A stretch of DNA of 64,000 nucleotides. It comes from Methylomonas sp. AM2-LC (GTDB taxonomy: Bacteria; Pseudomonadota; Gammaproteobacteria; Methylococcales; Methylomonadaceae). Numbering within the stretch: the first letter of the stretch is position 1; the number at the start of each line of letters is the position of its first letter. The stretch spans positions 1,240,001 through 1,304,000 of the forward strand of contig NZ_CP157005.1 of assembly GCF_039904985.1 (NCBI RefSeq), read 5' to 3'. Shown here one piece after another: positions 5,581 through 31,791 of this stretch. The notes below the pieces were generated by a model, which ran no database searches, was not told the origin of the DNA, and was given only the letters and a program-made list of their open reading frames with translations. The position numbers and the translations under genes are program-made.

Positions 5581-5590
5581 GAAATCCCCA

Positions 5591-10665: not shown

Positions 10666-10812
10666 TAAATTGTTTTATAAGTGTATTTTTTTATTGGCTT
10701 TGTGGGGAGTTTATAAGGCCATATTAAATATTTAATATCAAGTACAGACATTGAATTGGATTATAAATAATGTTAGCATCTGGGTTATTAATTAAGTTCA
10801 TGGGGAGGATGT

Positions 10813-11481: not shown

Positions 11482-11602
11482 ACAGTTTATAGGTTGGTTG
11501 ATGTTTAATATCAATCCAGCCTGCTTTACGCAACCGATTGCAGTTATGCAAAACTAGCTGGCTCAAATTGGTTAGAAATGTCCATCATATAATAGATTTC
11601 TA

Positions 11603-13756
11603 ATGTCCAGCATAGATGAAGATAAAACCTTACTAGTTTCGGATGTGGGGCGATTGCAAAAAGTTGATTCGCAAAATGCAGAAAACATTTTAAAAACTGA
11701 GCTGCCAGCGCAGAGTGTAATATCGCCCGATTTAGTAAGTAATAACCAACCTGAGTTAGGCATTGGTGTGCATGCAGAAGAGTTTACTGCCATTGAATCG
11801 ATGGAAGTTAATCAAACTGAAGCCATCGTTTTGGCGTCTGATATTCAAAATAGGGTTGTTTCTTTTGAAAATGAGGCTACCCAATTAGAAAGTAATTTTT
11901 CGTCGAATACCAGTTTAACATCTGCTGTTAAAGTGAGTATTGCCGATGATAAAACAGAGCTGAGTCAAGTTTCTACGCCACCTAATCAACCTTCTGCCAT
12001 GGCCGATACCCAGTATCAAACTATAGAAAATCAAGGTTCTGAATTGCAATCAGTACAGTTGGCAATTGGCGATGTGCTCAATAAACGCTTCGAGTTGGTA
12101 GAAAGTTTGGGCAAAGGTGGTATGGGGATGGTTTTTAAAGCTCTGGATTTGCGCAGAGTGGAGACTAAAGCCCGTAATCCGTATGTTGCTATCAAGGTGC
12201 TGAGTCCTGAATTAGCCAGTAATCATTTGTTGGTCGCTGCACTGCAAAGAGAATGTGAAAAAACGCAAGCATTGGCGCATCCAAATATAATCAGTGTTTA
12301 TGACTTTGATAAGGATGGCGAGTATGTGTTTATGTCCATGGAATTTCTATCTGGACAAATACTGAGTGATATTATCAAGGAATCGGCTTTGGCTGGCGGC
12401 GTAAAATTGGCGCGGGCTTGGCCTATGATACGAAAAATGGGCGAAGCCTTGGCTTATGCTCATAAAAAGAACATAGTGCATCGCGATTTTAAACCCGCCA
12501 ATGTGTTTGTGACCGAAGAGGGCGATATCAAGGTACTAGATTTTGGTATATCCACTAAAATTGAAACCTCAGAAGCAGAAGCTGTTGATATGTCAGGCGA
12601 GATTGATACACCTACACGCTTGGTCAGTACCGGTTTAACACCGACTTATGCCAGTCTGGAAATGATACGCGGCGAATTGCCAGATGCGCGAGATGATATT
12701 TATTCCTTTGGTTTAGTGGTTTACGAATTACTCACGGGCCAACATCCGTATGCCAGGCGCTCCGCCGATCAAGTATTTTATGATCAGCAGATCAAGACGG
12801 GTAAGAATAGCTTGCAACCCGTTAAAAAACTAAGTCGTCGGCAATGGTTGGCTTTGAAATCAGCTTTAGAGTTAATACAAGCCAAGCGTCCGAGAAATCT
12901 GGATGAATGGTTAAAAGAATTTGATCCTGCGGCAAAATGGTCGCTGACCATCTTGGGCGTTATTGGGTTGAGTAGTTTTTTAATCATTGGTTTTGGTGTA
13001 AATTGGTGGATGTCAAAAAATCCCCCTGTTACCGAAACTGTTCAGGCCCCTGTTACTTTTAAAATACCCTTGGCGAAACCGTGTTGCGAACAACAAGCTC
13101 AGGTGGGTGGGGAAGTATCATTGGATGGTACAGCTTCACAGTCTGGGGATGGTGATGCAATAAGTTACTCCTGGCGCTTGGCGCAATTACCAGAAGGCAG
13201 TAAAGCTATTTTGCAAAATGCTAATTCTGCAACACCGAAATTTTTGCCTGATAAACCCGGTTTGTATCAAGCGGAGTTATTTGTCTGGGATAAGCATAAT
13301 TCCTCGTTACCAGCCAATGTTGCAATTACGGTAACCGGGGTTGCAGCTATCCAGCCGCCTGTTGACCTTACTACGGTTGAAGGCGTGGTGTTTTTATCTG
13401 TTGGAAAGCCCAGTTATAAAGTTGGTGATGAGCTTAAGCTGCTTATTCATATGACAAAAACAGGTTATTTGCGTGTTGCTTATCTGAGTTCTTCTGGCGA
13501 GATTAGTGAGATTTTGCCTAATCCGTATCAGACGGGCCGCGTTAAAGCAGACACTGATTATCAGGTACCACCAAAATCGGGGAAATTTAAGTTGGAAGTT
13601 GGTGGCCCGGTGGGCGTGGATAGGATAGTGGCTGTGTTTAGTGAATCGCCATTGCCTACAGTTGAGAATGTGATAGATGCCAATGGTGTGGTGGTTGCCG
13701 AATTGCAGAACCAAAACATAGTTTCTAAAATGATTCAATATAATGTGGTGAGATAA
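11603..13756 (+). CDS. ppkA: PpkA-type Ser/Thr kinase with Ig-like and DUF4384 periplasmic domains
   Basis: A 717-residue membrane kinase. Residues 1-155 are an acidic unstructured tail with EDKTLL (Thr9) and DDKTEL (Thr118). The kinase domain (about 160-450) has the glycine loop GKGGMGMVF, VAIKVL, the catalytic loop HRDFKPAN and the DFG segment DFGIST. One membrane span follows (about 452-476). Outside are an Ig/PKD-like domain (SLDGTASQSGDGDAISYSW) and a C-terminal DUF4384 domain (KVGDELKLLIHM...GYLRVAYL). This is a sensor layout: external domains may detect contact or envelope damage and turn on phosphorylation of T6SS partners. It pairs with the PP2C domain at 9121 and the FHA protein at 1249. 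Confidence 0.92.
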   Translation: MSSIDEDKTLLVSDVGRLQKVDSQNAENILKTELPAQSVISPDLVSNNQPELGIGVHAEEFTAIESMEVNQTEAIVLASDIQNRVVSFENEATQLESNFSSNTSLTSAVKVSIADDKTELSQVSTPPNQPSAMADTQYQTIENQGSELQSVQLAIGDVLNKRFELVESLGKGGMGMVFKALDLRRVETKARNPYVAIKVLSPELASNHLLVAALQRECEKTQALAHPNIISVYDFDKDGEYVFMSMEFLSGQILSDIIKESALAGGVKLARAWPMIRKMGEALAYAHKKNIVHRDFKPANVFVTEEGDIKVLDFGISTKIETSEAEAVDMSGEIDTPTRLVSTGLTPTYASLEMIRGELPDARDDIYSFGLVVYELLTGQHPYARRSADQVFYDQQIKTGKNSLQPVKKLSRRQWLALKSALELIQAKRPRNLDEWLKEFDPAAKWSLTILGVIGLSSFLIIGFGVNWWMSKNPPVTETVQAPVTFKIPLAKPCCEQQAQVGGEVSLDGTASQSGDGDAISYSWRLAQLPEGSKAILQNANSATPKFLPDKPGLYQAELFVWDKHNSSLPANVAITVTGVAAIQPPVDLTTVEGVVFLSVGKPSYKVGDELKLLIHMTKTGYLRVAYLSSSGEISEILPNPYQTGRVKADTDYQVPPKSGKFKLEVGGPVGVDRIVAVFSESPLPTVENVIDANGVVVAELQNQNIVSKMIQYNVVR

Positions 13757-13994
13757 TTTGACTATGGCATCACAATAATTTAGTGTTAATTGTCACTTTT
13801 TTTTAGACGTATACTGTTGTAAGCTAGATGCTAGTAGCCAGGTTTGAGAAATAGTTCACATAATTTTATACTTGGCGAAGTATTTATAGTTAAGGATGTT
13901 TTTGATACATGATTAAAATTCCTTACTGATACCCAGTTAGTTTACTGATAAAAAGTTAACTAATTGCATAGTGTTGGCCAAAACAGAGTGTACT

Positions 13995-16900
13995 ATGGAA
14001 TTTAAATTAAAAGAAAAGTCGCTGCTTAAATTCGCCATCAGTGCGGTATTAGCCAGCTATACCTTGGAAACCCAGAGCAATCCAAATACCAATATACAGG
14101 CTGAAAATGGTTTTGGAACAACAGTTACGGGTGGTCATCAGAATTCTGCAACTATAGATGCGGGTAGTCAACATGCCGGCGGAAATGCTTTTTATGGTTT
14201 ATCCGCATTTCAGTTAGGTAGCGGTGATACGGGTACATTTACCTGTACTAACTGTGCCGCAAATAGTGTCAATAATGTTCTCGTTCGCGACAGTGGATTG
14301 AATGATAACGCCATTGCCAGTGCACTGGTCAGTAAAGGTGAATCTTATATTGATGGAGCTATAGCGTTTAGTGGTGCAGGTATCAGTAGTCATGCCAATT
14401 TTTGGCTTTTCAACGCTAACGGGGTGGTGTTCGGTCATAATGTAACCATTGATGTACCCGGCGCATTTCATGTCAGTAATGCGAATGAAATTAATGGGTC
14501 TGGCAAGACTGTTTTTGGTCCAGCGGTTATTTCAACAAATAATTCAGGCAGTACTTTGTCGGCAACTGACCCCAGTTCATTTGGTTTTTCGGGTACAGGC
14601 GGCGAGCAAACGCCAGGTACAACGTATGGCGTTACTTTGGATGCTAGTTCGATAACGGCAGGCGTGACTGTGTCGGCAAGCACCGTTACCGCTAGTGGTG
14701 GTTCTGCTACCATTGACATCGAAGGTACGACAATCAATATCGTCTCTTCTACAACTACGGGTAATACTACAACCACCTTAACTGGCTCAGACGTTACGGT
14801 AGCTGCGCGAATCAATGCAACTGCAGTCGATGCTAATGGTGTGCCGATTAGTAATAATGGTGATCTTATTATTAATAATAACGGTTCACTAACCTTGGCT
14901 GGTCAGGGCAGTTTGACTACGGCATCGCAGGTGATTGCAGAGAATAATTTGGTTCTTAGTGGTAACGGTACTACTAGCGGTGTCATTACTGATCAGCAAT
15001 CTACCGGGGTGACAAATATCAATGCAGCTAAAAAACTGGAGATTGGTGTTATTGCTGATGGTTCTCAAGGAGGTATTTATCATAGCGATGTCAGTAGTAC
15101 CTCGCCCAGTAGCGGTACTCTTAATGTAGGTAATGCATCATCGGGTAATAGCACTCTTACCATGACTGCACACTCTGCTATTAAAGACACCAGTACCGGT
15201 GGCGGTGCTTTGAATGTATCTGTACAGTCAGGTGGATTGTCGTTAGCAGGTAATGATCTGATCAGCAAAACCGATAAAAATGGTGCTTTATCAGTTAATG
15301 TGGTCGGACAATTGAATGTTACCAGCACTGATGTTATCAGTGCTGGAGGGAATAGCAATGATCAGATTTCAGCCGATACTATTAATAATTCAGGCGCTCT
15401 CACAGCCAATAACGTAACAGCAACCCAGAATTTAGTTAACTTGAATACTATCGCCGGTAATGCCCGGGCTGGTGGGGTGTTGTATAACGGCTGGGATGGA
15501 GCGACAACAGGTGCGACCAAGGCGGATTACAATACCGCGGCTAGCATTAGTGGAAACGCAACTTCGGGTTATGTAAGCGGTACGGGTTTAAGTGCCAACG
15601 CCAACACCAATTTGTATAATGTGGCCAGTATAACGGGCAATGCCCAAGCCAATGCCTCCAGTAGCGCAGCGAAAGCAGCAAACGGCAATTTGTATAATGG
15701 TTGGGATGGTACAACTATTTATAGCGGCGCCCAAATTAAAGGCGGTGCCACGGCGGGCAATAGTTTAAGTACGACAGGTAGCAATCTGCTTAATGATGGT
15801 GCCATCGGTACAGCTGGCGCAGGCAACACAGTGAATGTCTACGGAAGTGATCCTAGCGGCAGTTATGCCTTGATCAATAACGGTTCTATCATAGCCACCG
15901 TCAATGCTAATAATGGATCGGTGTTAAATAGCGCGAATAGTAGTGGTATTACGGGTAATGTGACCGCCGGCCAGAATGTAACCAACCTGAATACCATAAA
16001 GGGTACGGCTACAGCCAGTAACGGCTTTTTATATAACGGTTGGGATGGTGCCAGCAATTATCAAAGTACAGCCAGCATTAGTGGAAATGCGAGTGCCGGT
16101 AAGAGTTTATATAACTTAGCCAGTGTTGGCGGTGCTAGCAGCACGACAGGCAATGTCTATAATGGCTGGGATGGTACCGGTAAATCCAGCACAGATTACA
16201 ATAGTAATGCCAAAATCTCAGGCACAGCCAATGCCAATGGAAATTTATACAATCTGGCTAACATAACTGGGAATGCTCAGGCAGGTGGGGTGTTGTATAA
16301 CGGTTGGGATGGAACTGCGACAGGTGCTACCAGCAGTGACTACAATACCGCAGCCAGTATTGGTGGAAACGCAACTTCGGGTTATGTAAGCGGTACGGGT
16401 TTAAGTGCCAACGCCAACACCAATTTGTACAATGTGGCCAGTATAACGGGCAATGCCCAAGCTAATGCCTCCAGTAGCGCAGCGAAAGCAGCAAACGGCA
16501 ATTTGTATAATGGTTGGGATGGTACAACTATTTATAGCGGCGCCCAAATTAAAGGCGGTGCCACGGCGGGCAATAGTTTAAGTACGACAGGTAGCAATCT
16601 GCTTAATGATGGTGCCATCGGTACAGCTGGTGCAGGCAACACGGTGAATGTCTACGGAAGTGATCCTAGCGGTAGTTATGCGTTGATCAATAACGGTTCT
16701 ATCATAGCCTCCGTCAATGCTAATAATGGATCGGTGTTAAATAGCGCGAATAGTAGTGGTATTACGGGTAATGTGACCGCCAGCCAGAATGTAACCAACC
16801 TGAATACCATAAAGGGTACAGCTACAGCCAGTAACGGCTTTTTATATAACGGTTGGGATGGTGCCAGCAATTATCAAAGTACAGCCAGCATTAGTGGAAA

Positions 16901-19900
16901 TGCGAGTGCCGGTAAGAGTTTATATAACTTAGCCAGTGTTGGCGGTGCTAGCAGCACGACAGGCAATGTCTATAATGGCTGGGATGGTACCGGTAAATCC
17001 AGCACAGATTACAATAGTAATGCCAAAATCTCAGGCACAGCCAATGCCAATGGAAATTTATACAATCTGGCTAACATAACTGGGAATGCTCAGGCAGGTG
17101 GGGTGTTGTATAACGGTTGGGATGGAACTGCGACAGGTGCTACCAGCAGTGACTACAATACCGCAGCCAGTATTGGTGGAAACGCAACTTCGGGTTATGT
17201 AAGCGGTACGGGTTTAAGTGCCAACGCCAACACCAATTTGTACAATGTGGCCAGTATAACGGGCAATGCCCAAGCTAATGCCTCCAGTAGCGCAGCGAAA
17301 GCAGCAAACGGCAATTTGTATAATGGTTGGGATGGTACAACTATTTATAGCGGCGCCCAAATTAAAGGCGGTGCCACGGCGGGCAATAGTTTAAGTACGA
17401 CAGGTAGCAATCTGCTTAATGATGGTGCCATCGGTACAGCTGGCGCAGGCAACACAGTGAATGTCTACGGAAGTGATCCTAGCGGTAGTTATGCCTTGAT
17501 CAATAACGGTTCTATCATAGCCACCGTCAATGCTAATAATGGATCGGTGTTAAATAGCGCGAATAGTAGTGGTATTACGGGTAATGTGATCGCCGGCCAG
17601 AATGTAACCAACCTGAATACCATAAAGGGTACGGCTACAGCCAGTAACGGCTTTTTATATAACGGTTGGGATGGTGCCAGCAATTATCAAAGTACAGCCA
17701 GTATTAGTGGAAATGCGAGTGCCGGTAAGAGTTTATATAACTTAGCCAGTGTTGGCGGTGCTAGCAGCACGACAGGCAATGTCTATAATGGTTGGGATGG
17801 TACCGGTAAATCCAGCACAGATTACAATAGTAATGCCAAAATCTCAGGCACAGCCAATGCCAATGAAAATTTATACAATCTGGCCAACATAACTGGGAAT
17901 GCTCAGGCAGGTGGGGTGTTGTATAACGGTTGGGATGGAACTGCGACAGGTGCTACCAGCAGTGACTACAATACCGCAGCCAGTATTGGTGGAAACGCAA
18001 CTTCGGGTTATGTAAGCGGTACGGGTTTAAGTGCCAACGCCAACACCAATTTGTATAATGTGGCCAGTATAACGGGCAATGCCCAAGCCAATGCCTCCAG
18101 TAGCGCAGCGAAAGCAGCAAACGGCAATTTGTATAATGGTTGGGATGGTACAACTATTTATAGCAGCGCCCAAATTAAAGGCGGTGCCACGGCGGGTAAT
18201 AGTTTAAGTACGACAGGTAGCAATCTGCTTAATGATGGTGCCATCGGTACAGCTGGCGCAGGCAACACAGTGAATGTCTACGGAAGTGATCCTAGCGGTA
18301 GTTATGCGTTGATCAATAACGGTTCTATCATAGCCTCCGTCAATGCTAATAATGGATCGGTGTTAAATAGCGCGAATAGTAGTGGTATTACGGGTAATGT
18401 GACAGCCAGCCAGAATGTAACCAACCTGAATACCATAAAGGGTACAGCTACAGCCAGTAATGGCTTTTTATATAATGGTTGGGACGGTGCCAGCAATTAT
18501 CAAAGTACAGCCAGCATTAGTGGAAATGCGAGTGCCGGTAAGAGTTTATATAACTTAGCCAGTGTTGGCGGTGCTAGCAGCACGACAGGCAATGTCTATA
18601 ATGGCTGGGATGGTACCGGTAAATCCAGCACAGATTACAATAGTAATGCCAAAATCTCAGGCACAGCCAATGCCAATGGAAATTTATACAATCTGGCCAA
18701 CATAACTGGGAATGCTCAGGCAGGTGGGGTGTTGTATAACGGTTGGGATGGAACTGCGACAGGTGCGACCAGCAGTGACTACAATACCGCAGCCAGTATT
18801 GGTGGAAACGCAACTTCGGGTTATGTAAGCGGTACGGGTTTAAGTGCCAACGCCAACACCAATTTGTATAATGTGGCCAGTATAACGGGCAATGCCCAAA
18901 CCAATGCCTCCAGTAGCGCAGCGAAAGCAGCAAACGGCAATTTGTATAATGGTTGGGATGGTACAACTATTTATAGCGGCGCCCAAATTAAAGGCGGTGC
19001 CACGGCGGGCAATAGTTTAAGTACGACAGGTAGCAATCTGCTTAATGATGGTGCCATCGGTACAGCTGGCGCAGGCAACACAGTGAATGTCTACGGAAGT
19101 GATCCTAGCGGTAGTTATGCGTTGATCAATAACGGTTCTATCATAGCCACCGTCAATGCTAATAATGGATCGGTGTTAAATAGCGCGAATAGTAGTGGTA
19201 TTACGGGTAATGTGACCGCCAGCCAGAATGTAACCAACCTGAATACCATAAAGGGTACAGCTACAGCCAGTAATGGCTTTTTATATAATGGTTGGGACGG
19301 TGCCAGCAATTATCAAAGTACAGCCAGCATTAGTGGAAATGCGAGTGCCGGTAAGAGTTTATATAACTTGGCGAGTGTCGGCAGTGCTACAAGCCTGACA
19401 GGCAACATCTATAACGGATGGGATGGTAATACGGCTAAATACGGTACGGCGGCAGATTATAATGCTTCTGCGAATATTACCAGTTTTGCAAATGCAGGTA
19501 ACGGTATTTTGTATAATTTAGCCAGCATTGGTACTAATGCTAAAGCGGTAACAATCTATAACGGTTGGGATGGCAATGCTGCTACCGAAACAGCTGCAGA
19601 TTATAACCATTCTGCACAAATAACCACTGATGCTACCGTGAGTGGGAATTTATATAACTTAGCCAGTGTTGGCGGTAACGCTACTGGCACAGCGGGTAAT
19701 ATCTATAATGGTTGGGATGGCAATACAGCTAAATACGGTACAGCCGCTAATTATAACGCTTCAGCAAATATTGTTGGTTTTGCGAATGCAGGTAGTGGTG
19801 CTTTGTATAACTTAGCAAATATCGGCACATATGCCAAAGCTGGAAGAATTTATAACGGCTGGGATGGCAATACTTCTACCGAAACAGCTGCAGATTATAA

Positions 19901-22025
19901 CCATTCTGCACAAATAACCACTGATGCTACCGTGAGTGGGAGTTTGTATAATTTAGCCAGGGTTGGCGGCAGCGCTACCAGTACAGTGGGTAATATCTAT
20001 AATGGTTGGGATGGCAATACAGCTAAATACGGTACAGTCGCTAATTATAACACTTCTGCAAATATAGTTGGTTTTGCGAATGCAGGTAGTGGTGCTTTGT
20101 ATAACTTAGCAAATATCGGTACTTATGCAAAGGCGGGAAGAATTTATAACGGTTGGGATGGCAATACCTCAACCGAAACGACTGCTGATTACAACTATAC
20201 TGCATTTATTGTTAGTGATGTTACAGCGAGTGGCAACCTATATAACTTAGCCAGTGTGGGAGGCAGCGCTACTAGCATGGCAGGTAATATCTATAATGGT
20301 TGGGATGGTAATACGGCTAAATATGGTACAGCTGCAGATTATAATGCTTCGGCGGACATCGTTGGTTTTGCACATGCTAATAGTGGTGTTTTGTATAACC
20401 TGGCGGGTATCGGTAGTGATGCCAAGGCTGTGACAATTTATAACGGTTGGGATGGTAATACCACTACCGAAACGGCTGCTGATTATAACCATTCCTCATT
20501 CATAATGACTGATGCTACGGTAAGTGGAAACCTATATAACTTAGCCAGCATTGGAGGCAGCGCTACTAGCACCGCTGGTAATATCTATAATGGTTGGGAT
20601 GGTAATACGGCTAAATATGGTACAGCTGCAGATTATAATGCTTCGGCGAACATCATCGGTTTTGCTAATGCGACTAGCGGAGCTTTGTATAATTTAGCGG
20701 GTATCGGTAGTTATGCAAAGGCGGGAACCATTTATAATGGCTGGGACGGTAACTCTTCTGCTTCTGTTGCCAACAACTCTGCGGCTACCATTACCGGAAA
20801 CGTAATTGCTGGAGCCGATATAAATAATTACGGGCAAATAATTCTCAATGCTGCAGGATCAGAAATTGTTCAGGCGGGCAGTGCTGGTATTGTTGGTAAT
20901 TTAGTTAACAAGGGCACAATCAATGCCGAAAATGCTAGCGCCGATGTTGTTATTAAGGCGTATGGCGATATGACAATAGACGGCGGTGCCATTATCTTAT
21001 CAAACGATATTACTCATAAGGCTGAAGTGGATTCTGTTGATAATATGACTATCAAGAATCATGGGTCTATCAGAGATAATGGTTTAGGGTTATTAACGAT
21101 TGATCCCGAGAAAGCCGGCAGTAAACTGAATATAAATACAGGAAGCAGCATATCAACTGCTGGTGATTTGTCGATTATTGTCGGCGATCAAATCTCCAGT
21201 TCACCCGCGAGTCAGTTAATATTGGATAATGGTACATTAAATAGCATTGGGAATATGTCTATTGTTGTGGCTAGTCAAGCCCTTAGTGCTATTCCTGATA
21301 ATATTCGTGTTGTAAACCATTCCTTAATCCAAAGTGGTGGTTCTATCAAGATAGATTCTGATTCACTTTTATTGCCGAAACTCACCGCAATTAATAATTC
21401 GATTGGTTTGTTAATGCAAGATAGTTCGTTTATTTCGGCGGGATCGGTTGGCTTGGGTACTGCAGCAGCAGTCTCTACAAATCCTTTAATTCCAGCGAAT
21501 CCTACAAACTTAAAAGTTGTCTTGGATGTAAATGGTGGAAATTATTTTTCTGCTGCAGGACAGTTTGGGGGGCGCTCATCCAATTATGGAGTGACTATCG
21601 GTAATGCTAATAATAATGTTTTGAAAGGAAATTTAGGTTATTTACAGCAGGTATTGGCTAGTCAGCAACAAGATATTTTGTATTTACCCCCTGGCTCTTC
21701 AACTAATGGCTTAGAGAATTACACTGTTTTTGTTGGTTTTGGTTTTTTAACGCCACTTTCAACGACAGTTGTTGCCGGAGTATTGCCAGTAGTTAATCAT
21801 CCAGAAGAATATCCAGCGCTACCCACAGATCCTTGTTCAGCTGGCAGTGGTAGTAGCTTGGAAATGAAGAATAGTTATGGTGTGTTACCCGTATTTGCGG
21901 AAATATTACCTTTCTCAGTAGTACCTGGGCAGAATTTACAGAATACAAGTCCGATGCTTTCGCAGATTATCAGTCATAATTTGGCTAATAATACTTACAC
22001 AAAAATTTCTTGTGGAAAGGCGTGA
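13995..22025 (+). CDS. Giant two-partner-secretion exoprotein (TpsA) with YNGWDG repeats
   Basis: About 2676 residues from the ATG at 13995 (a GTG at 13971 is the alternative). An extended signal region is followed by a TPS/haemagglutination-activity domain (about 35-210) with a CTNC pair and LFNANGVVFG, a variant of the usual NPNG motif. Then comes an Asn/Gly/Ser/Ala-rich beta-helix-like region, five 271-residue repeats (the last partial), nine 49-residue modules, and a non-repeated C-terminal ~420 residues with two Cys 59 residues apart. YNGWDG occurs 29 times. It should be secreted by the TpsB encoded next and act as an adhesin or matrix fibre. No toxin domain is recognisable at the C-terminus. 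Confidence 0.93.
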   Translation: MEFKLKEKSLLKFAISAVLASYTLETQSNPNTNIQAENGFGTTVTGGHQNSATIDAGSQHAGGNAFYGLSAFQLGSGDTGTFTCTNCAANSVNNVLVRDSGLNDNAIASALVSKGESYIDGAIAFSGAGISSHANFWLFNANGVVFGHNVTIDVPGAFHVSNANEINGSGKTVFGPAVISTNNSGSTLSATDPSSFGFSGTGGEQTPGTTYGVTLDASSITAGVTVSASTVTASGGSATIDIEGTTINIVSSTTTGNTTTTLTGSDVTVAARINATAVDANGVPISNNGDLIINNNGSLTLAGQGSLTTASQVIAENNLVLSGNGTTSGVITDQQSTGVTNINAAKKLEIGVIADGSQGGIYHSDVSSTSPSSGTLNVGNASSGNSTLTMTAHSAIKDTSTGGGALNVSVQSGGLSLAGNDLISKTDKNGALSVNVVGQLNVTSTDVISAGGNSNDQISADTINNSGALTANNVTATQNLVNLNTIAGNARAGGVLYNGWDGATTGATKADYNTAASISGNATSGYVSGTGLSANANTNLYNVASITGNAQANASSSAAKAANGNLYNGWDGTTIYSGAQIKGGATAGNSLSTTGSNLLNDGAIGTAGAGNTVNVYGSDPSGSYALINNGSIIATVNANNGSVLNSANSSGITGNVTAGQNVTNLNTIKGTATASNGFLYNGWDGASNYQSTASISGNASAGKSLYNLASVGGASSTTGNVYNGWDGTGKSSTDYNSNAKISGTANANGNLYNLANITGNAQAGGVLYNGWDGTATGATSSDYNTAASIGGNATSGYVSGTGLSANANTNLYNVASITGNAQANASSSAAKAANGNLYNGWDGTTIYSGAQIKGGATAGNSLSTTGSNLLNDGAIGTAGAGNTVNVYGSDPSGSYALINNGSIIASVNANNGSVLNSANSSGITGNVTASQNVTNLNTIKGTATASNGFLYNGWDGASNYQSTASISGNASAGKSLYNLASVGGASSTTGNVYNGWDGTGKSSTDYNSNAKISGTANANGNLYNLANITGNAQAGGVLYNGWDGTATGATSSDYNTAASIGGNATSGYVSGTGLSANANTNLYNVASITGNAQANASSSAAKAANGNLYNGWDGTTIYSGAQIKGGATAGNSLSTTGSNLLNDGAIGTAGAGNTVNVYGSDPSGSYALINNGSIIATVNANNGSVLNSANSSGITGNVIAGQNVTNLNTIKGTATASNGFLYNGWDGASNYQSTASISGNASAGKSLYNLASVGGASSTTGNVYNGWDGTGKSSTDYNSNAKISGTANANENLYNLANITGNAQAGGVLYNGWDGTATGATSSDYNTAASIGGNATSGYVSGTGLSANANTNLYNVASITGNAQANASSSAAKAANGNLYNGWDGTTIYSSAQIKGGATAGNSLSTTGSNLLNDGAIGTAGAGNTVNVYGSDPSGSYALINNGSIIASVNANNGSVLNSANSSGITGNVTASQNVTNLNTIKGTATASNGFLYNGWDGASNYQSTASISGNASAGKSLYNLASVGGASSTTGNVYNGWDGTGKSSTDYNSNAKISGTANANGNLYNLANITGNAQAGGVLYNGWDGTATGATSSDYNTAASIGGNATSGYVSGTGLSANANTNLYNVASITGNAQTNASSSAAKAANGNLYNGWDGTTIYSGAQIKGGATAGNSLSTTGSNLLNDGAIGTAGAGNTVNVYGSDPSGSYALINNGSIIATVNANNGSVLNSANSSGITGNVTASQNVTNLNTIKGTATASNGFLYNGWDGASNYQSTASISGNASAGKSLYNLASVGSATSLTGNIYNGWDGNTAKYGTAADYNASANITSFANAGNGILYNLASIGTNAKAVTIYNGWDGNAATETAADYNHSAQITTDATVSGNLYNLASVGGNATGTAGNIYNGWDGNTAKYGTAANYNASANIVGFANAGSGALYNLANIGTYAKAGRIYNGWDGNTSTETAADYNHSAQITTDATVSGSLYNLARVGGSATSTVGNIYNGWDGNTAKYGTVANYNTSANIVGFANAGSGALYNLANIGTYAKAGRIYNGWDGNTSTETTADYNYTAFIVSDVTASGNLYNLASVGGSATSMAGNIYNGWDGNTAKYGTAADYNASADIVGFAHANSGVLYNLAGIGSDAKAVTIYNGWDGNTTTETAADYNHSSFIMTDATVSGNLYNLASIGGSATSTAGNIYNGWDGNTAKYGTAADYNASANIIGFANATSGALYNLAGIGSYAKAGTIYNGWDGNSSASVANNSAATITGNVIAGADINNYGQIILNAAGSEIVQAGSAGIVGNLVNKGTINAENASADVVIKAYGDMTIDGGAIILSNDITHKAEVDSVDNMTIKNHGSIRDNGLGLLTIDPEKAGSKLNINTGSSISTAGDLSIIVGDQISSSPASQLILDNGTLNSIGNMSIVVASQALSAIPDNIRVVNHSLIQSGGSIKIDSDSLLLPKLTAINNSIGLLMQDSSFISAGSVGLGTAAAVSTNPLIPANPTNLKVVLDVNGGNYFSAAGQFGGRSSNYGVTIGNANNNVLKGNLGYLQQVLASQQQDILYLPPGSSTNGLENYTVFVGFGFLTPLSTTVVAGVLPVVNHPEEYPALPTDPCSAGSGSSLEMKNSYGVLPVFAEILPFSVVPGQNLQNTSPMLSQIISHNLANNTYTKISCGKA
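15471..19370 (+). repeat. Tandem array of 813-bp in-frame repeats (4 full copies plus a partial fifth)
   Basis: Copies begin at 15471, 16284, 17097, 17910 and 18723, exactly 813 bp (271 codons) apart. They differ by only scattered single-base changes (for example ATVNANN versus ASVNANN). The fifth copy stays near-identical until about 19370 and then diverges. Each full copy carries four YNGWDG motifs. Such near-identity over nearly 4 kb implies recent duplication or gene conversion, and makes copy-number change by slippage or recombination likely. Confidence 0.97.
19413..20750 (+). repeat. Tandem array of 147-bp modules (nine full copies plus a tenth start)
   Basis: NGWDG codons recur at 19413, 19560, 19707, 19854, 20001, 20148, 20295, 20442, 20589 and 20736, a strict 147-bp (49-residue) period. 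Two module types alternate: NGWDGNTAKYGTAADYN... and NGWDGN(A/T)(S/A/T)TETAADYN..., giving a 294-bp superperiod. Copies are more diverged than in the 813-bp array, so this is an older expansion in the same gene. Confidence 0.96.
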
Positions 22026-22065
22026 TTTAGCGGATTATAAAACGTCTCTTTATAGTTTATAAAAA

Positions 22066-23850
22066 ATGAAAATGAAACATAAGTCAGGTGATTGCAAAGT
22101 TGGTAGGACTGTTTATTTTCAAATGGATAGAAATGCTAATTACGCACTTATCTGTTTATTTGGTTTCTCTGTCATGTTTCCAGAATTACTTGTGGCGCAA
22201 GACAGTATGCCTGCCATTAGTAATGATCCTACTAAAACCCAACAAGCTATACCCGATTTACTGCCTTTGCCTGAAAAGAAAGGTAAAGGGTTTGAATTGC
22301 CCGCCTTGCCCAAGCATGTCGATCAGGAAAAAGGCGCTAAAACCATTCAGCTTAAACAGGTAGTGTTTACTGGGAATACGGTGTTCACTAATGAGGAGTT
22401 ACAGGATTTACTAGTTTCCTACTTAAATAGACCCTTATCTGCCGTCGATTTAGAAAGTATGCGCAGCAAAGCGACGCAATACTATATTGATCATGGTTAT
22501 ATTAATTCGGGCGCATTGTTAACTACCCAGTCAGTTGCAGAAGGAGTGCTGAGCCTAACTGTGGTTGAAGGTAAATTGACAGAAGTTCGACAATCGGGGC
22601 AGGAGCGTTTACGGGAAGGCTATATTCGTGACCGTCTGCTGGAAGGGAGTGGTGATCCTTTAAATGTTCAGAATCTACAAAACAGCTATCGACAATTATT
22701 GTCCGATCCTTTGATTCAGCAATTAAATGGTAGTTTATTGCCAGGTGTACACCCCGGTGAAGCAGTTTTGGATGTTAAAGTTACGCGTAACAGACCTTAT
22801 CAGGCCTATGCAGGTGCAGATGATTATTCAACCCCCGCAGTGGGTTCTTATGCTGGACGCATGGGTGGCTGGGTGGATAATTTGATGACGCTGGGTGAGC
22901 GTATTGATGGTCAATTTATCGTTAATGGTACTGCGCTGGGTTATAACATGGGCATTACTATGCCGATAACTGCCCAGGATACACGCGTAAGCTTTCGTTA
23001 TAGCGATACACATAGTAGTTTAACAGAACGTGCGAGTAATCCTTTGAATCTACAGAGCCAGATTACGGGGTTTGATGGTGGAATTTTACATCCCATTTAC
23101 AGAACCTTGAATGATAATCTAAAGTTAGGTTTGAATTTTGCTGTTCGTCAGAGCCAAACCTTGCTTGCAGGTCGTTGTGATTCAGGTGCGCTTTTTACGG
23201 GTGTTGATGGAGATCATTCCTGTAACACACAAGTAACAGTGTTAAGAGTCTCCCAACGGTATACGCATAGGGTCGAATCAACGGGTTTTGCTTTTTATTC
23301 AACTTTCAACGTTGGAATTAATGCTTTAGGTGCAACTACCTATCAGCCCTTAGGTGGTCAGGGTGGGGAGTTTTTTAGTTGGTTAGCTCAGTCCATGTTT
23401 AATCAACGTATTTTGGACAATGGTACGCAATTGGTGCTAAGAGGAGCAGTGCAAATAGCAAATTCACCTTTGTTACCTTTAGAGCGATTTTCAGTGGGTG
23501 GCGTAAACACCGCGCGCGGCTATCAAGAAAATTCATATATTCGCGATAATGGATTTAATACGACTGCGGAAATTAAATATCCGCTATATGGTGGTACCAG
23601 TAGCGACAAAAATAATTTATTTTTGGTGCCATTTATCGATTATGCAGGTGGTTGGAATGTTGCTTATGCAGGTAATTCCCCTCCTGTTGATTACCTGTTT
23701 TCCAGCGGGCTTGGCTTTAATTGGCAATACAAGCAAGTCTCTACCGATTTTTATTGGGGGCATGCTTTTAATTCGGTAGTACCCAAGCCGAGTACTAAAA
23801 GCATACAGGACGAAGGTATTCACTTCCGTGTTAATGTTAACGCTTTTTAA
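22066..23850 (+). CDS. TpsB outer-membrane transporter (ShlB/FhaC/HecB family)
   Basis: A 594-residue protein with an N-terminal export signal (the hydrophobic run lies near residues 25-45). If translation starts at the in-frame ATG at 22123, the signal peptide becomes conventional in length. POTRA domains follow (from about residue 95, IQLKQVVFTGNTVFTNEEL), then a 16-stranded barrel of the ShlB/FhaC type ending in a C-terminal Phe. The loop-6 motif, normally VRGY, is ARGY (Arg484) within GGVNTARGYQEN. It translocates the TpsA protein encoded 40 bp upstream across the outer membrane. The gene order tpsA-tpsB and same-strand spacing fit one operon. Confidence 0.94.
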   Translation: MKMKHKSGDCKVGRTVYFQMDRNANYALICLFGFSVMFPELLVAQDSMPAISNDPTKTQQAIPDLLPLPEKKGKGFELPALPKHVDQEKGAKTIQLKQVVFTGNTVFTNEELQDLLVSYLNRPLSAVDLESMRSKATQYYIDHGYINSGALLTTQSVAEGVLSLTVVEGKLTEVRQSGQERLREGYIRDRLLEGSGDPLNVQNLQNSYRQLLSDPLIQQLNGSLLPGVHPGEAVLDVKVTRNRPYQAYAGADDYSTPAVGSYAGRMGGWVDNLMTLGERIDGQFIVNGTALGYNMGITMPITAQDTRVSFRYSDTHSSLTERASNPLNLQSQITGFDGGILHPIYRTLNDNLKLGLNFAVRQSQTLLAGRCDSGALFTGVDGDHSCNTQVTVLRVSQRYTHRVESTGFAFYSTFNVGINALGATTYQPLGGQGGEFFSWLAQSMFNQRILDNGTQLVLRGAVQIANSPLLPLERFSVGGVNTARGYQENSYIRDNGFNTTAEIKYPLYGGTSSDKNNLFLVPFIDYAGGWNVAYAGNSPPVDYLFSSGLGFNWQYKQVSTDFYWGHAFNSVVPKPSTKSIQDEGIHFRVNVNAF

Positions 23851-23860
23851 GGAATTGAAT

Positions 23861-26200
23861 ATGTGTCAATCATTGTTTAAATCGGAGCTGAAAAAATTGA
23901 AGTTGCTAAATTTGGCTTTAATGAGTGTTTTGTTTTTAGGCAATGTGACACAGAGTTATGCTGCTCTGGAGTCTGAAACAGAAAATTTGTCTGTAAACGA
24001 TTATAAAACTTTGTTAGCTGAAGGGGAAAGTCTTAGAAGTACCGGTAATTTACTCGATGCACAGAAAAAATTTGATTTGGCTAAGCAATTGGCTGATAAA
24101 AGCCCATCATTAGAGTCGGCGGTTTTAGCGGCAATAGAAACAGCTTCAGGATATAACTTATTTTTATTAAATCGAAAGGAAGCTGCAGAAAAACAATTAT
24201 TGGATGCCTATCAAAAAACAGCAGAGGGCTTGCCTTATCTGCATGCATTGGCGGGTGAGTATTTAGGGAATATGGCGCAGTCTGATGGTGATGTTGCAGA
24301 AGCTGCAGGTTATTATTCAGAAGCGCTTAAAGCCGCAAAAGTAACCAATGATCAGGCTTTACAAATAAGTTTGGAATTGCTGAATATTAACTTATCTGAT
24401 CAATCAAATGAGATTAAAGCGCATTCTCTATTGAGCATTGCTAAGCGTTTTCAGCCGTTAGCCGATGATTTTGTTAAGGCCAAATTACAATTAGCCTTTA
24501 GTCAGGATGCGCTAGGGTTGGATAAGAATTCATTGCAATCAGAAACTTGGGCCTTGTTGAATGGCGCTGTTTACGAAACGCTGAATTCTTTATTGGCCTA
24601 TACCCTTAACCAGGGGCAGGAGAGATTCAGAGCAGAATCTTATGCCAGTATGGCGCATTTATACCGAATAAATGCCAAAAATGCAGATGCTTTGATTCTG
24701 ACGGATAAAGCGATTGAGCTAGCTACGCAGAGTAAAGCTAAAGAGTTATTGGCCCAGTTATATGCGCAAAAAGGCGATTTACTGCGCTTGCAAGGCGATA
24801 ATGTGAATGCCTTAGCGGCTTATGAATTAGCGGTACATGAATTGTTTGATATTCGTGCAGATTTACCTTTAACCATGCCAGATGGTCGGTCTTCTATTAA
24901 TGTAATGATAGACCCCATTCATCGTGGTTATGCAGATCTTCTGTTAAAAAGTGCAGATGGGAAGGATGAGGAGACAGTTCGCACTATACTCTACAAGGTA
25001 GTTGGTAACATGGAAGTGATTAAAGAAGCCGATATGCAAGATTTTTTTCTAGGGAAATGCGCCATTAATGCCATTAAGCCTTTAGATTGGAAGACGACGC
25101 CATTACAGGACGCTGCCATCTTCTATCCCATTCTGTTACCGGATAGAGTTGAGGTGGTGATTAAAACTGATCAGGAAATTTTTCGACGTACCATCAATGT
25201 TCCTGCTGGTGAAGTTAAAGAACAGATACAGTTATTTGGTCAAGCTTTACAGAACGGAAAGCCCTTTCGTAAATCTGCCGAAAAGCTTTATGAATGGCTG
25301 CTTAAGCCTGTGCTTAGTCAATTAGAAAATGATCAGGTCAAAACTTTGGTGTATGTGCCTGATCGAGATATGCGTGCTATACCCTTTGCGGCTTTTAATG
25401 ATGGTAAGCACTTTGTGGTTGAAGAATTTGGTGTGGTGACTATGCCTAGTTTGGCGTTCCAAAATTTACAGCATTTGCGGGAAGTGAGTGCTGCAAGTCA
25501 GGAGTTATTTGCCGGTCTTAGTGTGGCGGATGGTCCATCAATAGATAAATTACCTAAAAAAGTGGTGGCTGAAATTACAAATTCGGAGTCGCCCAGCAAA
25601 AATAGATCTGTCATTGCGAGTCGCCCTCAGCGAGGCATATTGGCAGAAAACTTAAGTTTACCCAGTGTTGAAAAAGAAATTGATGTTTTGTCTGCCCAAC
25701 AATCCAGCAAAATTCTGATGAATAGTCAATTTACAAGCTCTTCATTTAAGTCGTATCTCGAATCCGGAGATTTTGAGAAAGTTCATATAGCTTCGCATGG
25801 TTTTTTTGGAAATAATGCTAAAGATAGTTTTATACTGGCTTACGATGAAATATTGTCGTTGGAAGATTTACAAACCAGTTTAAGTGTAAATAAATTGCAA
25901 GATAGTCCTATTAGTTTGTTAACTTTAAGCGCTTGTGAAACGGCACAAGGTAATGACAGAATGTTGCTTGGCTTTAGTGGTATGGCAATTAAAAGCAATG
26001 TTCAGAGTGCTTTGGGTAGTTTATGGCCAATAGATGATGAAGGCGCTATGGAGTTTATGACTTTATTTTATCAGGGCGTTAATAAATCTATGGCAAAAGC
26101 ACAAGCATTACAGCAAGCACAAGTAGCAATGATTAAATCGCCTAAATTTAAACATCCCTATTATTGGTCACCCTTTATTCTGACTGGAAATTGGCGTTAA
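23861..26200 (+). CDS. Exported TPR-CHAT domain (caspase-like) protein
   Basis: 779 residues from the ATG at 23861, which has AAGGA seven bases upstream; an upstream in-frame start at 23828 overlaps tpsB and is less likely. Residues 1-40 form a signal peptide (LALMSVLFLGNVTQSYAA). Residues about 45-330 are helical tetratricopeptide-like repeats. The C-terminal ~350 residues are a CHAT domain with the catalytic pair His646 (HIASHGFF) and Cys692 (TLSACETAQG). CHAT proteins are caspase/separase-related peptidases. Location after tpsAB and the export signal suggest it acts on, or is displayed with, the secreted repeat protein. Tandem TPS-CHAT loci occur in cyanobacteria, as I recall. Confidence 0.9.
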   Translation: MCQSLFKSELKKLKLLNLALMSVLFLGNVTQSYAALESETENLSVNDYKTLLAEGESLRSTGNLLDAQKKFDLAKQLADKSPSLESAVLAAIETASGYNLFLLNRKEAAEKQLLDAYQKTAEGLPYLHALAGEYLGNMAQSDGDVAEAAGYYSEALKAAKVTNDQALQISLELLNINLSDQSNEIKAHSLLSIAKRFQPLADDFVKAKLQLAFSQDALGLDKNSLQSETWALLNGAVYETLNSLLAYTLNQGQERFRAESYASMAHLYRINAKNADALILTDKAIELATQSKAKELLAQLYAQKGDLLRLQGDNVNALAAYELAVHELFDIRADLPLTMPDGRSSINVMIDPIHRGYADLLLKSADGKDEETVRTILYKVVGNMEVIKEADMQDFFLGKCAINAIKPLDWKTTPLQDAAIFYPILLPDRVEVVIKTDQEIFRRTINVPAGEVKEQIQLFGQALQNGKPFRKSAEKLYEWLLKPVLSQLENDQVKTLVYVPDRDMRAIPFAAFNDGKHFVVEEFGVVTMPSLAFQNLQHLREVSAASQELFAGLSVADGPSIDKLPKKVVAEITNSESPSKNRSVIASRPQRGILAENLSLPSVEKEIDVLSAQQSSKILMNSQFTSSSFKSYLESGDFEKVHIASHGFFGNNAKDSFILAYDEILSLEDLQTSLSVNKLQDSPISLLTLSACETAQGNDRMLLGFSGMAIKSNVQSALGSLWPIDDEGAMEFMTLFYQGVNKSMAKAQALQQAQVAMIKSPKFKHPYYWSPFILTGNWR

Positions 26201-26652: not shown

Positions 26653-27690
26653 ATGGCAGATATATCCGAATTAACCAGTGAAATTAGCTCCGACTTACCT
26701 TGTGGCTCTGACCTGGAGTACGATAGTGGTCGTTTGGCACTCAATACAGCTATTCAGGGTACGCCTGAAGATCAGTTTTCAGGGCAAAAATTTGAGCCAC
26801 CTAATTGGCGAGAAATTCAAAAACAATCCGTTACCCTGTTAAAAAAATCTAAAGACTTACAAGTTATTCTATATTTAATCAGAGCCTTAATTCCTTTGGA
26901 AGGTGTCTGCGGGTTGCGCGATGGGCTTAATTTACTGGAACAAACTTTAAAAGCTTATTGGCCAGTTGTTTACCCTTTGTTGGATCCGGATGATAATGAT
27001 CCCACTCAAAGACTTAATATTATTGAAGAACTGTGTAGTTGGGAATATATTCTCAATCCTTTGTCGGTGTGTATATTAGTTGAATCGAAGTCGATTGGAC
27101 GTGTTTCATTACGTGATATACAGTATGCCAATGAAAAATTGCCTGTCCCTGCCGGTATTACCAAGCCTGAAGTTAATGTAATTAAAGCAGTTTTCGATGA
27201 TAATGATCCTGAACAGTTACAAATTCTTTATCAGGCTATTCTTGACTCAGAACAATTAGTCAAACAGATTGAAAGTATTGTTGCTGATAATGTTACTGGC
27301 ATTGGCAATGGTGTTAATTTAGAGGCTTTAAAATCCTTACTTAAGGAAATGCATTTCAGCTTTGATCAATTTGTGGAAGCAAGTTCTGCTGATGACAATA
27401 ACACTAAAGAGCAGGACGAAGTTGGTGATGATTCATCAACAACACAAAGCCGAGGAAAAACTGCAAACAAGGGTATTGGTGACATTAGCTCAAGAAGCGA
27501 TGTCATAAAAACTCTCGACTTAATTTGTAAATATTATGCAGAAAATGAACCGTCTAGCCCGGTGCCTATTTTGTTGGAACGGGCAAAAAAGCTTGCTGTA
27601 GCCAATTTTATGGAAATAATTATGAATTTAGCGCCAGATGCGTTAAACCAAATTGAAAATATCAAAGGACCTGAGTCAGAATCCAATTAG
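26653..27690 (+). CDS. tssA: TssA: T6SS sheath-assembly cap protein
   Basis: A 345-residue ImpA-family protein. The N-terminal ImpA domain carries the SDLPCGSDLEYD signature and LLKKSKDLQVILYLIRALI. A charged linker (about 255-285) leads to a short C-terminal domain. TssA binds the baseplate and the distal sheath end and guides TssB/TssC polymerisation. It opens the second T6SS block (tssA-B-C-hcp-tagJ-E-F-G-clpV). Confidence 0.94.
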   Translation: MADISELTSEISSDLPCGSDLEYDSGRLALNTAIQGTPEDQFSGQKFEPPNWREIQKQSVTLLKKSKDLQVILYLIRALIPLEGVCGLRDGLNLLEQTLKAYWPVVYPLLDPDDNDPTQRLNIIEELCSWEYILNPLSVCILVESKSIGRVSLRDIQYANEKLPVPAGITKPEVNVIKAVFDDNDPEQLQILYQAILDSEQLVKQIESIVADNVTGIGNGVNLEALKSLLKEMHFSFDQFVEASSADDNNTKEQDEVGDDSSTTQSRGKTANKGIGDISSRSDVIKTLDLICKYYAENEPSSPVPILLERAKKLAVANFMEIIMNLAPDALNQIENIKGPESESN

Positions 27691-27734
27691 TGTTGTTGGT
27701 TTTTTTTATCAAATTATAAGTACAGGAGAATAGT

Positions 27735-28253
27735 ATGGCTGATAGTAGTCAGAAGTTTATTCAGCGAAATAGGGCGCCTCGCGTTCAAATCGAATATGAT
27801 GTTGAAGTCTATGGTTCTGCAAAAAAAGTACAGTTACCTTTTGTGATGGGGGTATTGTCTGATTTATCTGGTAAGCCAAGTGAAGCCCTTCCTCCTGTTG
27901 CGGATCGTAAATTATTGGAAATTGATGTGGATAACTTCAATGACCGACTAAAATCCATGAAGCCTAGAGTTGCATTTCAAGTAGAGAATACATTAACAGG
28001 TGAGGGTAACCTAAATGTTGATATTACTTTTGAAAGCATGGATGATTTTTCACCTGCTGCTGTGGCTAAAAAAGTAGCTGGTTTGGATAAAATTCTGGAA
28101 GCCAGAACTCAGTTAAATAATCTGATTACCTATATGGATGGTAAAACAGGCGCAGAAGAACTGATTGCCAGACTGGTGAATGATCCCGCTTTATTACAAA
28201 CCCTAGCGGCTTCGGCAAAACCAGCTGATGCTGCAGACTCGGCAGGAGAATAA
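27735..28253 (+). CDS. tssB: TssB (VipA): contractile sheath small subunit
   Basis: A 172-residue TssB/VipA protein, with RAPRVQIEYDVE at the N-terminus and the LPFVMGVLSDLSG motif. A clear AGGAGA ribosome-binding site precedes the ATG. With TssC it forms the contractile sheath around the Hcp tube. The next gene starts directly at its stop codon, so the two subunits are translationally coupled. Confidence 0.97.
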   Translation: MADSSQKFIQRNRAPRVQIEYDVEVYGSAKKVQLPFVMGVLSDLSGKPSEALPPVADRKLLEIDVDNFNDRLKSMKPRVAFQVENTLTGEGNLNVDITFESMDDFSPAAVAKKVAGLDKILEARTQLNNLITYMDGKTGAEELIARLVNDPALLQTLAASAKPADAADSAGE

Positions 28254-29744
28254 ATGATGGCCGAATTAGATAGCCAAAGCAGCCAAGGCGCAACACAAAC
28301 TCTTGAATATGATGATTTTTCTGCATTGTTATCCAAGGAGTTTAAGCCAGGTACAGAAGCAGCCAATCAGGTTACCTCCGCCGTATCTACGCTGGCTCAA
28401 TATGCTTTACAAGATGTTTCCAAAGTTTCTGACGATGCTATTAAGACTATACAAGCGATTATTGCCGGTTTAGATCAAAAAATTACCGAACAATTGAATC
28501 TGATTTTGCATAACCCGGATTTCCAAAAGCTGGAAGGCGCTTGGCGAGGATTGCATTATCTGGTTAACAATACCGAAACTGATGAAATGTTAAAAATTCG
28601 GGTCTTGAATATTTCTAAATCCGAATTAGGCAAAACCCTGAAAAAATTTAAAGGTACTGCTTGGGATCAAAGCCCACTCTTCAAAAAATTGTATGAAGAA
28701 GAATTTGGTACCTTTGGTGGCGAACCTTATGGTTGTTTGGTTGGTGATTATCATTTTGATCATAGTCCGCCAGATGTGGAATTATTGACTGAAATGTCTA
28801 AAATTAGTGCAGCATCGCATACGCCTTTCATTACCGGTGTAGCACCTACCGTTCTGCAAATGGAAAGCTGGTCAGAGTTAGCTAATCCGCGCGATTTGAC
28901 CAAAATATTCCAGACACCGGAATATGCTTCTTGGAAATCGTTACGCGAATCAGAAGACTCTCGTTATCTCGGTTTGGCTATGCCGCGTTTCTTAAGTCGC
29001 TTACCCTATGGAGCCAAAACTGATCCGGTAGAAGAGTTTGATTTTGAAGAAGACACTTCTGGCGCTAGCAGCAGTAACTATACTTGGTCTAACGCTGCTT
29101 ACGCTATGGCCGTCAATATCAATCGTTCATTTAAGATGTATGGTTGGTGTTCACGCATACGCGGTATTGAGTCGGGTGGTGCAGTGGAAGGTTTGCCAGT
29201 TCATAGCTTCCCAACCGATGACGGTGGGGTGGACATGAAATGTCCAACTGAAATTGCCATTACCGACAGGCGTGAAGCTGAATTGGCAAAAAGTGGTTTT
29301 ATGCCATTGATACATAAGAAAAATACTGATTTTGCAGCGTTTATTGGTGCTCAGTCATTACAAAAGCCTGCTGAATATGAAGATCCAGATGCGACCGCTA
29401 ACGCCAATTTAGCCGCGCGTTTACCGTATTTATTTGCTACCTGTCGTTTCGCGCATTATTTAAAATGTATGGTTCGCGATAAAATAGGTTCATTTAAAGA
29501 AAGAGATGATATGGAAGTCTGGCTTAATAGCTGGATCAGTCAATATGTGTTGCAAAATCCCGCAGTTGCTTCAGAGCAAGATAAAGCTATTCGCCCATTG
29601 GCGGGTGCTGAAGTCGTCGTGGAAGAAGTAGAAGGCAACCCCGGCTATTATCAATCCAAATTTTTTCTGAGACCGCATTATCAGCTGGAAGGGTTGACCG
29701 TTTCTTTGCGATTGACATCTAAGTTACCGTCTCAGAAAGGATAG
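28254..29744 (+). CDS. tssC: TssC (VipB): contractile sheath large subunit
   Basis: A 496-residue TssC/VipB protein with the family blocks LEGAWRGLHYLV, GEPYGCLVGDYHFDH and the C-terminal FLRPHYQLEGLTVSLRL. Two consecutive ATG codons lie at 28254 and 28257, immediately after the tssB stop. Length is standard and there is only one TssC, unlike Agrobacterium, which carries two. Confidence 0.97.
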   Translation: MMAELDSQSSQGATQTLEYDDFSALLSKEFKPGTEAANQVTSAVSTLAQYALQDVSKVSDDAIKTIQAIIAGLDQKITEQLNLILHNPDFQKLEGAWRGLHYLVNNTETDEMLKIRVLNISKSELGKTLKKFKGTAWDQSPLFKKLYEEEFGTFGGEPYGCLVGDYHFDHSPPDVELLTEMSKISAASHTPFITGVAPTVLQMESWSELANPRDLTKIFQTPEYASWKSLRESEDSRYLGLAMPRFLSRLPYGAKTDPVEEFDFEEDTSGASSSNYTWSNAAYAMAVNINRSFKMYGWCSRIRGIESGGAVEGLPVHSFPTDDGGVDMKCPTEIAITDRREAELAKSGFMPLIHKKNTDFAAFIGAQSLQKPAEYEDPDATANANLAARLPYLFATCRFAHYLKCMVRDKIGSFKERDDMEVWLNSWISQYVLQNPAVASEQDKAIRPLAGAEVVVEEVEGNPGYYQSKFFLRPHYQLEGLTVSLRLTSKLPSQKG

Positions 29745-29830
29745 CAATAAACTGTGTTTTTATGTAAATTGTAGTAAGCATTTGAATATTCACCTTAAGT
29801 TATTTTTGCTAGGTGACTATATATTTTGAA

Positions 29831-29846
29831 GCCCGGCTTGCCGGGC
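29831..29846 (+). promoter_or_regulatory. GC-rich hairpin upstream of hcp
   Basis: A 7-bp perfect stem, GCCCGGC/GCCGGGC, with a 2-base loop (or 6 bp with a 4-base loop) in the AT-rich tssC-hcp spacer. It lacks a T-tract, so it is more likely a partial attenuator or an RNA-stabilising structure at the 5' end of a processed hcp message than a full terminator. Confidence 0.5.
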
Positions 29847-29908
29847 AGGTGAATTATCAGGCTAATGTGCCTGTTTATTTTGAAATCAACTATTGATAAG
29901 GAAACATT

Positions 29909-30403: not shown

Positions 30404-30420
30404 TAAGTGATGATGTAAAC

Positions 30421-30448: not shown

Positions 30449-30479
30449 TTCAATTACTCCTAATTAAGGAGCCCATACT

Positions 30480-31789: not shown

Positions 31790-31791
31790 TT

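Follow-up and report, generated by a model that had tools for sequence, protein, structure and literature searches.

Two-partner secretion operons with an exported-type TPR-CHAT protein and their linkage to type VI secretion loci in one CHAT clade

The stretch of DNA analysed here (the window) comprises 64,000 nucleotides of Methylomonas sp. AM2-LC (contig NZ_CP157005.1, positions 1,240,001 to 1,304,000, forward strand). It contains a cassette of three adjoining genes, coding for a giant exoprotein (TpsA) and its transporter (TpsB) of the two-partner secretion (TPS) type as well as for a TPR-CHAT protein that looks exported, and this cassette lies between two blocks of type VI secretion system (T6SS) genes. 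Methylococcaceae are typically methanotrophs. Based on the genes and their domains, export-type N-termini, a conserved neighbourhood, the association of a TpsA tail motif with CHAT, fold comparison and the T6SS linkage of one clade, we suggest that this TPS operon includes a dedicated caspase-like protease of the periplasm, which would act on the anchored tail of TpsA and, in this clade, would be wired to the T6SS through a membrane kinase. The probability of this reading is about 0.5. No earlier account of a TPS-CHAT system was found in the literature searched. The operon is recurrent and seems to carry both an enzyme of caspase/separase fold and a ready candidate target motif.

Organisation of the cassette

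The main features are as follows (positions in the window):

13995 (ATG) or 13971 (GTG) to 22025, + strand: TpsA, 2676 aa (2684 aa from GTG)
14130 to 14888, + strand: TPS secretion domain of TpsA (PF05860, E 1.4e-9, 38.7 bits, cut-off 33.5)
15483 to 19547, + strand: five 813-bp (271-aa) repeats of TpsA with YNGWDG units, the last copy diverged
19410 to 20732, + strand: 49-aa YNGWDG repeats of TpsA with 147/294-bp periods
21834 to 22022, + strand: C-terminal domain of TpsA with a Cys pair (Cys2614, Cys2673) and the tail motif, a candidate anchor and CHAT target
22066 to 23850, + strand: TpsB transporter (PF08479 (POTRA_2) 7.5e-19, PF03865 (ShlB) 7.5e-18)
23828 (GTG) or 23861 (ATG) to 26200, + strand: exported-type TPR-CHAT protein (CHAT 3.4e-55)
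25796 to 25798, + strand: codon of His657, predicted catalytic (His in 140/140 rows)
25934 to 25936, + strand: codon of Cys703, predicted catalytic (Cys in 140/140 rows)

Open reading frames (ORFs) and Pfam matches confirm the triple of TpsA, TpsB and TPR-CHAT that a sequence-only reading of the window had put forward. The N-terminal TPS domain of TpsA together with the adjacent POTRA/ShlB-type TpsB are features of type Vb two-partner secretion. PF05860 was found when the N-terminal piece was scanned alone, and the full 2684-aa protein gave no Pfam match at the 0.001 threshold. Altogether 29 YNGWDG units were counted in TpsA. The first four copies of the 813-bp repeat share 96.6-98.6% identity and the fifth 84-86%; since four copies (15483-18734) are 97-99% identical, the length of the fibre may still be changing by recombination.

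The CHAT protein and its predicted active site

Pfam detects only CHAT and TPR in the third protein, with a long TPR part and no match to a LapG-type peptidase domain. Its fold matches Csx29 and separase in fold comparison, and a sequence search of solved structures returned TPR and other matches, no CHAT protein. The N-terminus is signal-peptide-like, as the sequence-only reading had stated, so that the protein is probably exported and periplasmic. The His and Cys predicted to be catalytic are kept in all 140 distinct rows that cover both columns (gapped rows were set aside); His657 and Cys703, counted from the GTG, are identical with His646 and Cys692 of that reading. Both residues point to a cysteine protease. 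Alternatively, CHAT could act as a scaffold or chaperone, keeping TpsA in place at the outer membrane, and use the caspase fold for binding and not for cutting. The long TPR part and a disulfide-type TpsA tail, which docking would suit, are compatible with such a role, but the invariance of His and Cys in 140/140 rows argues against it and we consider it quite unlikely. No Cas7-11 or other Cas family was found among the window proteins covered by the Pfam scans, which left out small and overlapping ORFs.

A conserved motif in the TpsA tail

The tails of CHAT-linked TpsA proteins share the pattern C-x(n)-S-S-[LF]-x3-G-[RK]-G-G-[LI]-P. A first regular expression matched 46/75 linked but also 172/1500 shuffled tails and was dropped for a profile hidden Markov model (HMM) built from 12 training tails, with the test loci held out and a match defined as E <0.1 at a database size of 1000. 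This HMM recognised 61 of 71 held-out CHAT-linked tails, none of 91 shuffled tails and none of 12 complete tails, a small control set, from TPS loci that have no CHAT in the vicinity. The tail of the window's TpsA, which was outside the training set, was matched with E 0.0029 (database size 1000). Among the ten missed tails seven are of the T6SS-linked clade described below or window-like; in these the Cys pair stays and GRGGLP is altered, and both Cys are aligned in 10/10 tails of the T6SS-clade type. Concerning the controls, a first attempt at 20 TpsB places gave only one recognisable TPS partner (L267), and three rows labelled unlinked were not used, as L228 repeats the linked L181 tail in truncated form.

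Over the whole length of fusions of TpsA with CHAT or caspase the motif was found in 0/4. This fits a docking or cleavage signal, which would be dispensable where one chain carries both TpsA and the protease. The idea of proteolytic maturation expressed in the sequence-only reading is thus favoured by the C-terminal motif, and cleavage itself is a prediction from sequence. Single ORFs with TPS and CHAT, both over the Pfam cut-offs, are present in L090 (2-3361), L091 (7532-11509) and L068 (12940-15831). In L224 (G238:C74:14000-28500) an ORF on the minus strand (6686-13132) codes for a 2149-aa TpsA that carries ESPR, TPS, MBG, GLUG and propeller-like repeats and ends in a caspase domain (Peptidase_C14), adjoining TpsB and a DUF4384 kinase. 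By its sequence, this ORF represents another route to combining TPS with a caspase fold.

A further alternative regards TpsA as a toxin-delivering exoprotein resembling those of contact-dependent inhibition (CDI), with CHAT as its maturation or immunity factor. TPS and T6SS in one locus would then make a weapons island, and CHAT genes in a variable T6SS region of Bacteroides fragilis have been supposed to code for immunity proteins (PMC11854122). But there is no Pfam toxin domain in TpsA, the next ORF is TpsB, and TpsA ends in a short, conserved domain with a Cys pair and not in a variable toxin, which makes this explanation highly improbable.

Occurrence of TPS-CHAT without T6SS

In the DNA examined around the best 80 of 550 named CHAT loci, spanning Cyanobacteria, Betaproteobacteria, Methylococcales, Desulfobacter, Nitrospira and Myxococcales, TpsA was found in 43, TpsB in 29, both in 21 and either in 51. 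None of the 80 contained a T6SS component; in a wider profile run the TssL profile matched L038 and L069 only through an OmpA-like protein. In the class sample VipB was present in 8 of 31 other CHAT-bearing genomes, never less than 20 kb from CHAT and mostly on different draft contigs, the closest distance on the same contig being 29 kb (G438). A general partnership of TPS-CHAT with T6SS is therefore rejected. Among the findings that would speak against its interpretation, the sequence-only reading had named wide occurrence of the triple without T6SS combined with the lack of a conserved neighbourhood. Of this combination the first half was obtained and the second was not, since CHAT is accompanied by TpsA, TpsB and often a membrane sensor. 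In L209, which is outside the T6SS-linked clade, an ORF 7 kb from CHAT matched the TagF profile; Pfam shows only PP2C and it was not counted as T6SS.

The strong signal is gene adjacency and not co-occurrence at the level of genomes, which is weak in the class sample (TPS in 15/32 CHAT genomes vs 62/197 others, p 0.11). CHASE2 domains occur in 30/80 named loci and DUF928 in 33/80. Three annotated cyanobacterial plasmid regions were opened (L291, L292 and L293). In L291, ShlB, a CHASE2-histidine kinase, a filamentous haemagglutinin, CHAT and DUF928 are adjoining, and L293 contains TpsA, CHAT, DUF928 and CHAT-CHASE2.

Linkage with the T6SS in one CHAT clade

The genes surrounding the cassette are:

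1249 to 10665, + strand: T6SS block with Fha, TssK, TssL, TssM and TagF fused to a PP2C phosphatase (Pfam)
10813 to 11481, + strand: OmpA-family peptidoglycan-binding protein with signal peptide (PF00691, 1.3e-19), first gene of the inserted module
11603 to 13756, + strand: Ser/Thr kinase with PKD-like and DUF4384 domains (PF00069 3.4e-40, PF22352, PF14326 1.4e-18)
26653 to 37559, + strand: T6SS block with TssA, TssB, TssC, Hcp, TagJ (ImpE), TssE, TssF, TssG and a ClpV-like AAA+ protein

CHATs like the window's protein were detected in 70 of the 301 genomes of the order that were searched. In a tree of 74 sequences, chosen from 127 rows with incomplete ones excluded, all 13 T6SS-linked rows fall into one group of 16 (SH-aLRT 99). 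This corresponds to 13 of 15 testable loci of the clade (about 11 independent ones, as two pairs are near-copies) vs 0/58 other CHAT rows of the tree, 39 of the 61 rows without a scored link having at least 4 kb of DNA on both sides. The sixteenth clade row, G280, ends at a contig edge and is outside the testable ones. G034 and G019 are linked through the TssA side and G245 through Fha alone. The position between T6SS genes stressed by the sequence-only reading is thus no accident of the window, and two sites can be distinguished: in sub-group 1 (window type) the cassette is inserted between TagF and TssA, in sub-group 2 just before Fha-TssK (G145, G150, G215, G185, G238, G224, G180, G245). 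The linkage is real but confined to this one CHAT clade.

Hitch-hiking has to be weighed as an alternative: a TPS-CHAT cassette of common type would have inserted into a T6SS locus by chance and be carried along with no functional tie. TPS-CHAT usually occurs without T6SS, and the cassette is missing from many T6SS loci of this type. On the other hand, one CHAT clade occupies two positions in T6SS loci with 13/15 testable loci linked, TssC is matched in 15 of 16 clade genomes vs 107 of 285 others (Fisher p 8e-6, not corrected for kinship), and the linkage persists although the carriers need at least six changes, i.e. repeated loss or gain, in a TssK+TssM tree of 42 loci. We regard hitch-hiking as possible but do not favour it.

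The inserted module and its kinase

In 14 contiguous Fha-TssK-L-M-TagF-TssA-B-C loci of the same genus without the cassette TssA starts less than 1 kb after TagF, and all five genes found in the TagF-TssA gap of the contiguous carriers (window, G018 and G005), namely OmpA, DUF4384 kinase, TpsA, TpsB and CHAT, are missing from 14/14. The same order is seen across contig breaks in G034 and G019, the latter with two OmpA-like genes. Presence of the kinase in this genus follows that of the cassette, so that the insertion as a whole spans 10813-26200. The ppkA-type kinase, which the sequence-only reading had counted as part of the T6SS block, is therefore ruled out as a core T6SS gene and belongs to the module. 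On the whole, the interpretation given by that reading is partly supported; its example of a functional link, adhesion that would bring target cells within reach of the T6SS, is a hypothesis.

The kinase domain is followed by one transmembrane helix (hydrophobic peak at about residues 447-465) and then by the PKD-like and DUF4384 part, which is presumably periplasmic. By Pfam matches and the hydrophobic peak, the window's T6SS locus has the gene set of a threonine phosphorylation pathway, with a membrane-bound kinase of the Ser/Thr type, a PP2C phosphatase and Fha. Two other arrangements were observed. In L147 (G011:C1:700000-716000) a TpsA-CHAT-TpsB cassette with no T6SS link has an OmpA-like gene and a DUF4384 kinase in its vicinity, and in L231 (G120, another genus) a large ORF on the minus strand (6859-10374) that matches the DUF4384-region profile adjoins TssA without TPS or CHAT.

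Proposed mechanism

We suggest that TpsA is exported by Sec and then threaded out through TpsB, while its C-terminal Cys-pair domain would remain periplasmic as anchor, tethering the repeat fibre outside. The TPR part of the periplasmic CHAT protein may dock the tail (C...SS[LF]...G[RK]GGLP, altered in the T6SS clade) and the CHAT part, as caspase/separase-like cysteine protease, would cut it, so that the fibre is matured or released. By analogy with known TPS tail anchors, with LapG-CdrA and with FhaB processing, CHAT is proposed as dedicated protease of the TpsA anchor. A membrane protein with extracytoplasmic sensor domain may report the state of the surface complex, and in the T6SS clade this would be the DUF4384 kinase, which could pass the state of the envelope to Fha, as suggested by the control of firing through PpkA-PppA-Fha1. 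Control of T6SS firing is the likely output because the kinase gene belongs to a single block together with T6SS genes that include Fha and PP2C.

A full contact relay, in which the fibre touches a neighbour, CHAT cuts the tail, the DUF4384 kinase reads this event and phosphorylation of Fha fires the T6SS, appears unlikely as a whole. If true, it would be a bacterial caspase-like switch outside the cytoplasm coupling touch to attack, and the same surface switch would elsewhere feed CHASE2 sensors. With the cassette placed inside a T6SS locus and next to a membrane kinase, the trigger of firing by contact would become directly testable. A variant in which CHAT is a sensor protease, activated by contact or retraction of TpsA and cutting the periplasmic DUF4384 part of the kinase (CHASE2 elsewhere) for signalling, is likewise doubtful: the type of sensor varies by lineage while the TpsA tail motif is common, and no CHASE2 was found in the DNA examined around 50/80 loci.

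Several observations weigh against the proposed protease acting on the TpsA tail and wired to the T6SS. The motif controls are few (17 TPS ORFs recognised in 20 loci, 12 of them complete and 5 cut) and include one with Ns near the end and two from the window's own genome. In the T6SS clade GRGGLP is changed and the HMM misses L125, L130, L178 (two tails), L179, L182 and the window-like L219; the score of L177 is borderline and L181 is missed. The CHAT-linked TpsAs may represent one TPS lineage, with motif and CHAT co-inherited without contact. Some CHATs have no TPS nearby, e.g. on the cyanobacterial plasmid L292, and in G173 and G227 the DNA examined around the locus shows the clade's CHAT away from T6SS. 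An OmpA-kinase pair stands before Fha beside a T6SS without TPS-CHAT in G168 and G268 and can thus live with T6SS alone. Near-full-length kinase relatives were found, among the matches listed, in G009, G030 and G212, genomes in which no CHAT of the T6SS-linked clade was detected. Kinase and CHAT may therefore be separate additions, and the kinase as strict partner of TPS-CHAT is weakened by these five genomes.

Relation to known systems

Disulfide-anchored TpsA tails stay in the periplasm, and in Pseudomonas aeruginosa the periplasmic protease LapG cuts the C-terminal tail of CdrA, a TPS adhesin secreted by CdrB (PMC5422565). The window resembles CdrA/CdrB-LapG in this respect, but LapG is under control of the cyclic di-GMP (c-di-GMP) level whereas here the candidate is a TPR-CHAT protein of caspase/separase fold in the TPS operon. 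As in HMW1 and HxuA, the tail Cys pair is expected to lock TpsA in TpsB (PMC5422565); in the window it spans about 60 residues, and no CHAT partner of HMW1/HxuA is mentioned in the part of the review available. The C-terminal prodomain of Bordetella FhaB (FhaB/FhaC) undergoes regulated proteolysis by proteases of the periplasm and the cell surface, namely DegP, CtpA and SphB1 (PMC8263021), but this system has no CHAT enzyme and the SphB1 gene is outside the fhaB-fhaC locus (PMC5422565).

Csx29, the TPR-CHAT protein of Craspase, partners Cas7-11 (PMC10028731) and separase acts with cohesin, whereas the window's CHAT is of exported type and beside TPS. Threonine phosphorylation through PpkA-PppA-Fha1 controls firing of the H1-T6SS (PMC12133291); there, too, a single T6SS locus codes for the membrane kinase, the PP2C phosphatase and Fha, but the window differs by PKD-DUF4384 after the transmembrane helix, TPS-CHAT neighbours and PP2C fused to TagF. 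One earlier mention of CHAT-domain genes inside a T6SS locus was met: in Bacteroides fragilis BOB25 they are located in a variable T6SS region and, adjoining effectors, are described as likely immunity proteins (PMC11854122); hemagglutinin is absent from the text as far as available. PMC8283722 contains both DUF4384 and CHAT in its available text. The literature searched, with most subscription journals uncovered, held nothing that joins a CHAT domain with hemagglutinin or two-partner secretion, and nothing on GRGGLPP or on type VI together with two-partner secretion in Methylomonas.

Further observations

The window's genome has four other strong TPS domains (G000:C1:2249763, 1995510, 1535494 and 873457), and two of these stretches (L282, L283) were checked and gave no CHAT match. 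The window's TssA (26653-27690) is about 49-57% identical to its same-genus T6SS counterparts and TssC 85-92%. A DUF6931 gene (37991-38584) is located between the ClpV-like gene and VgrG.

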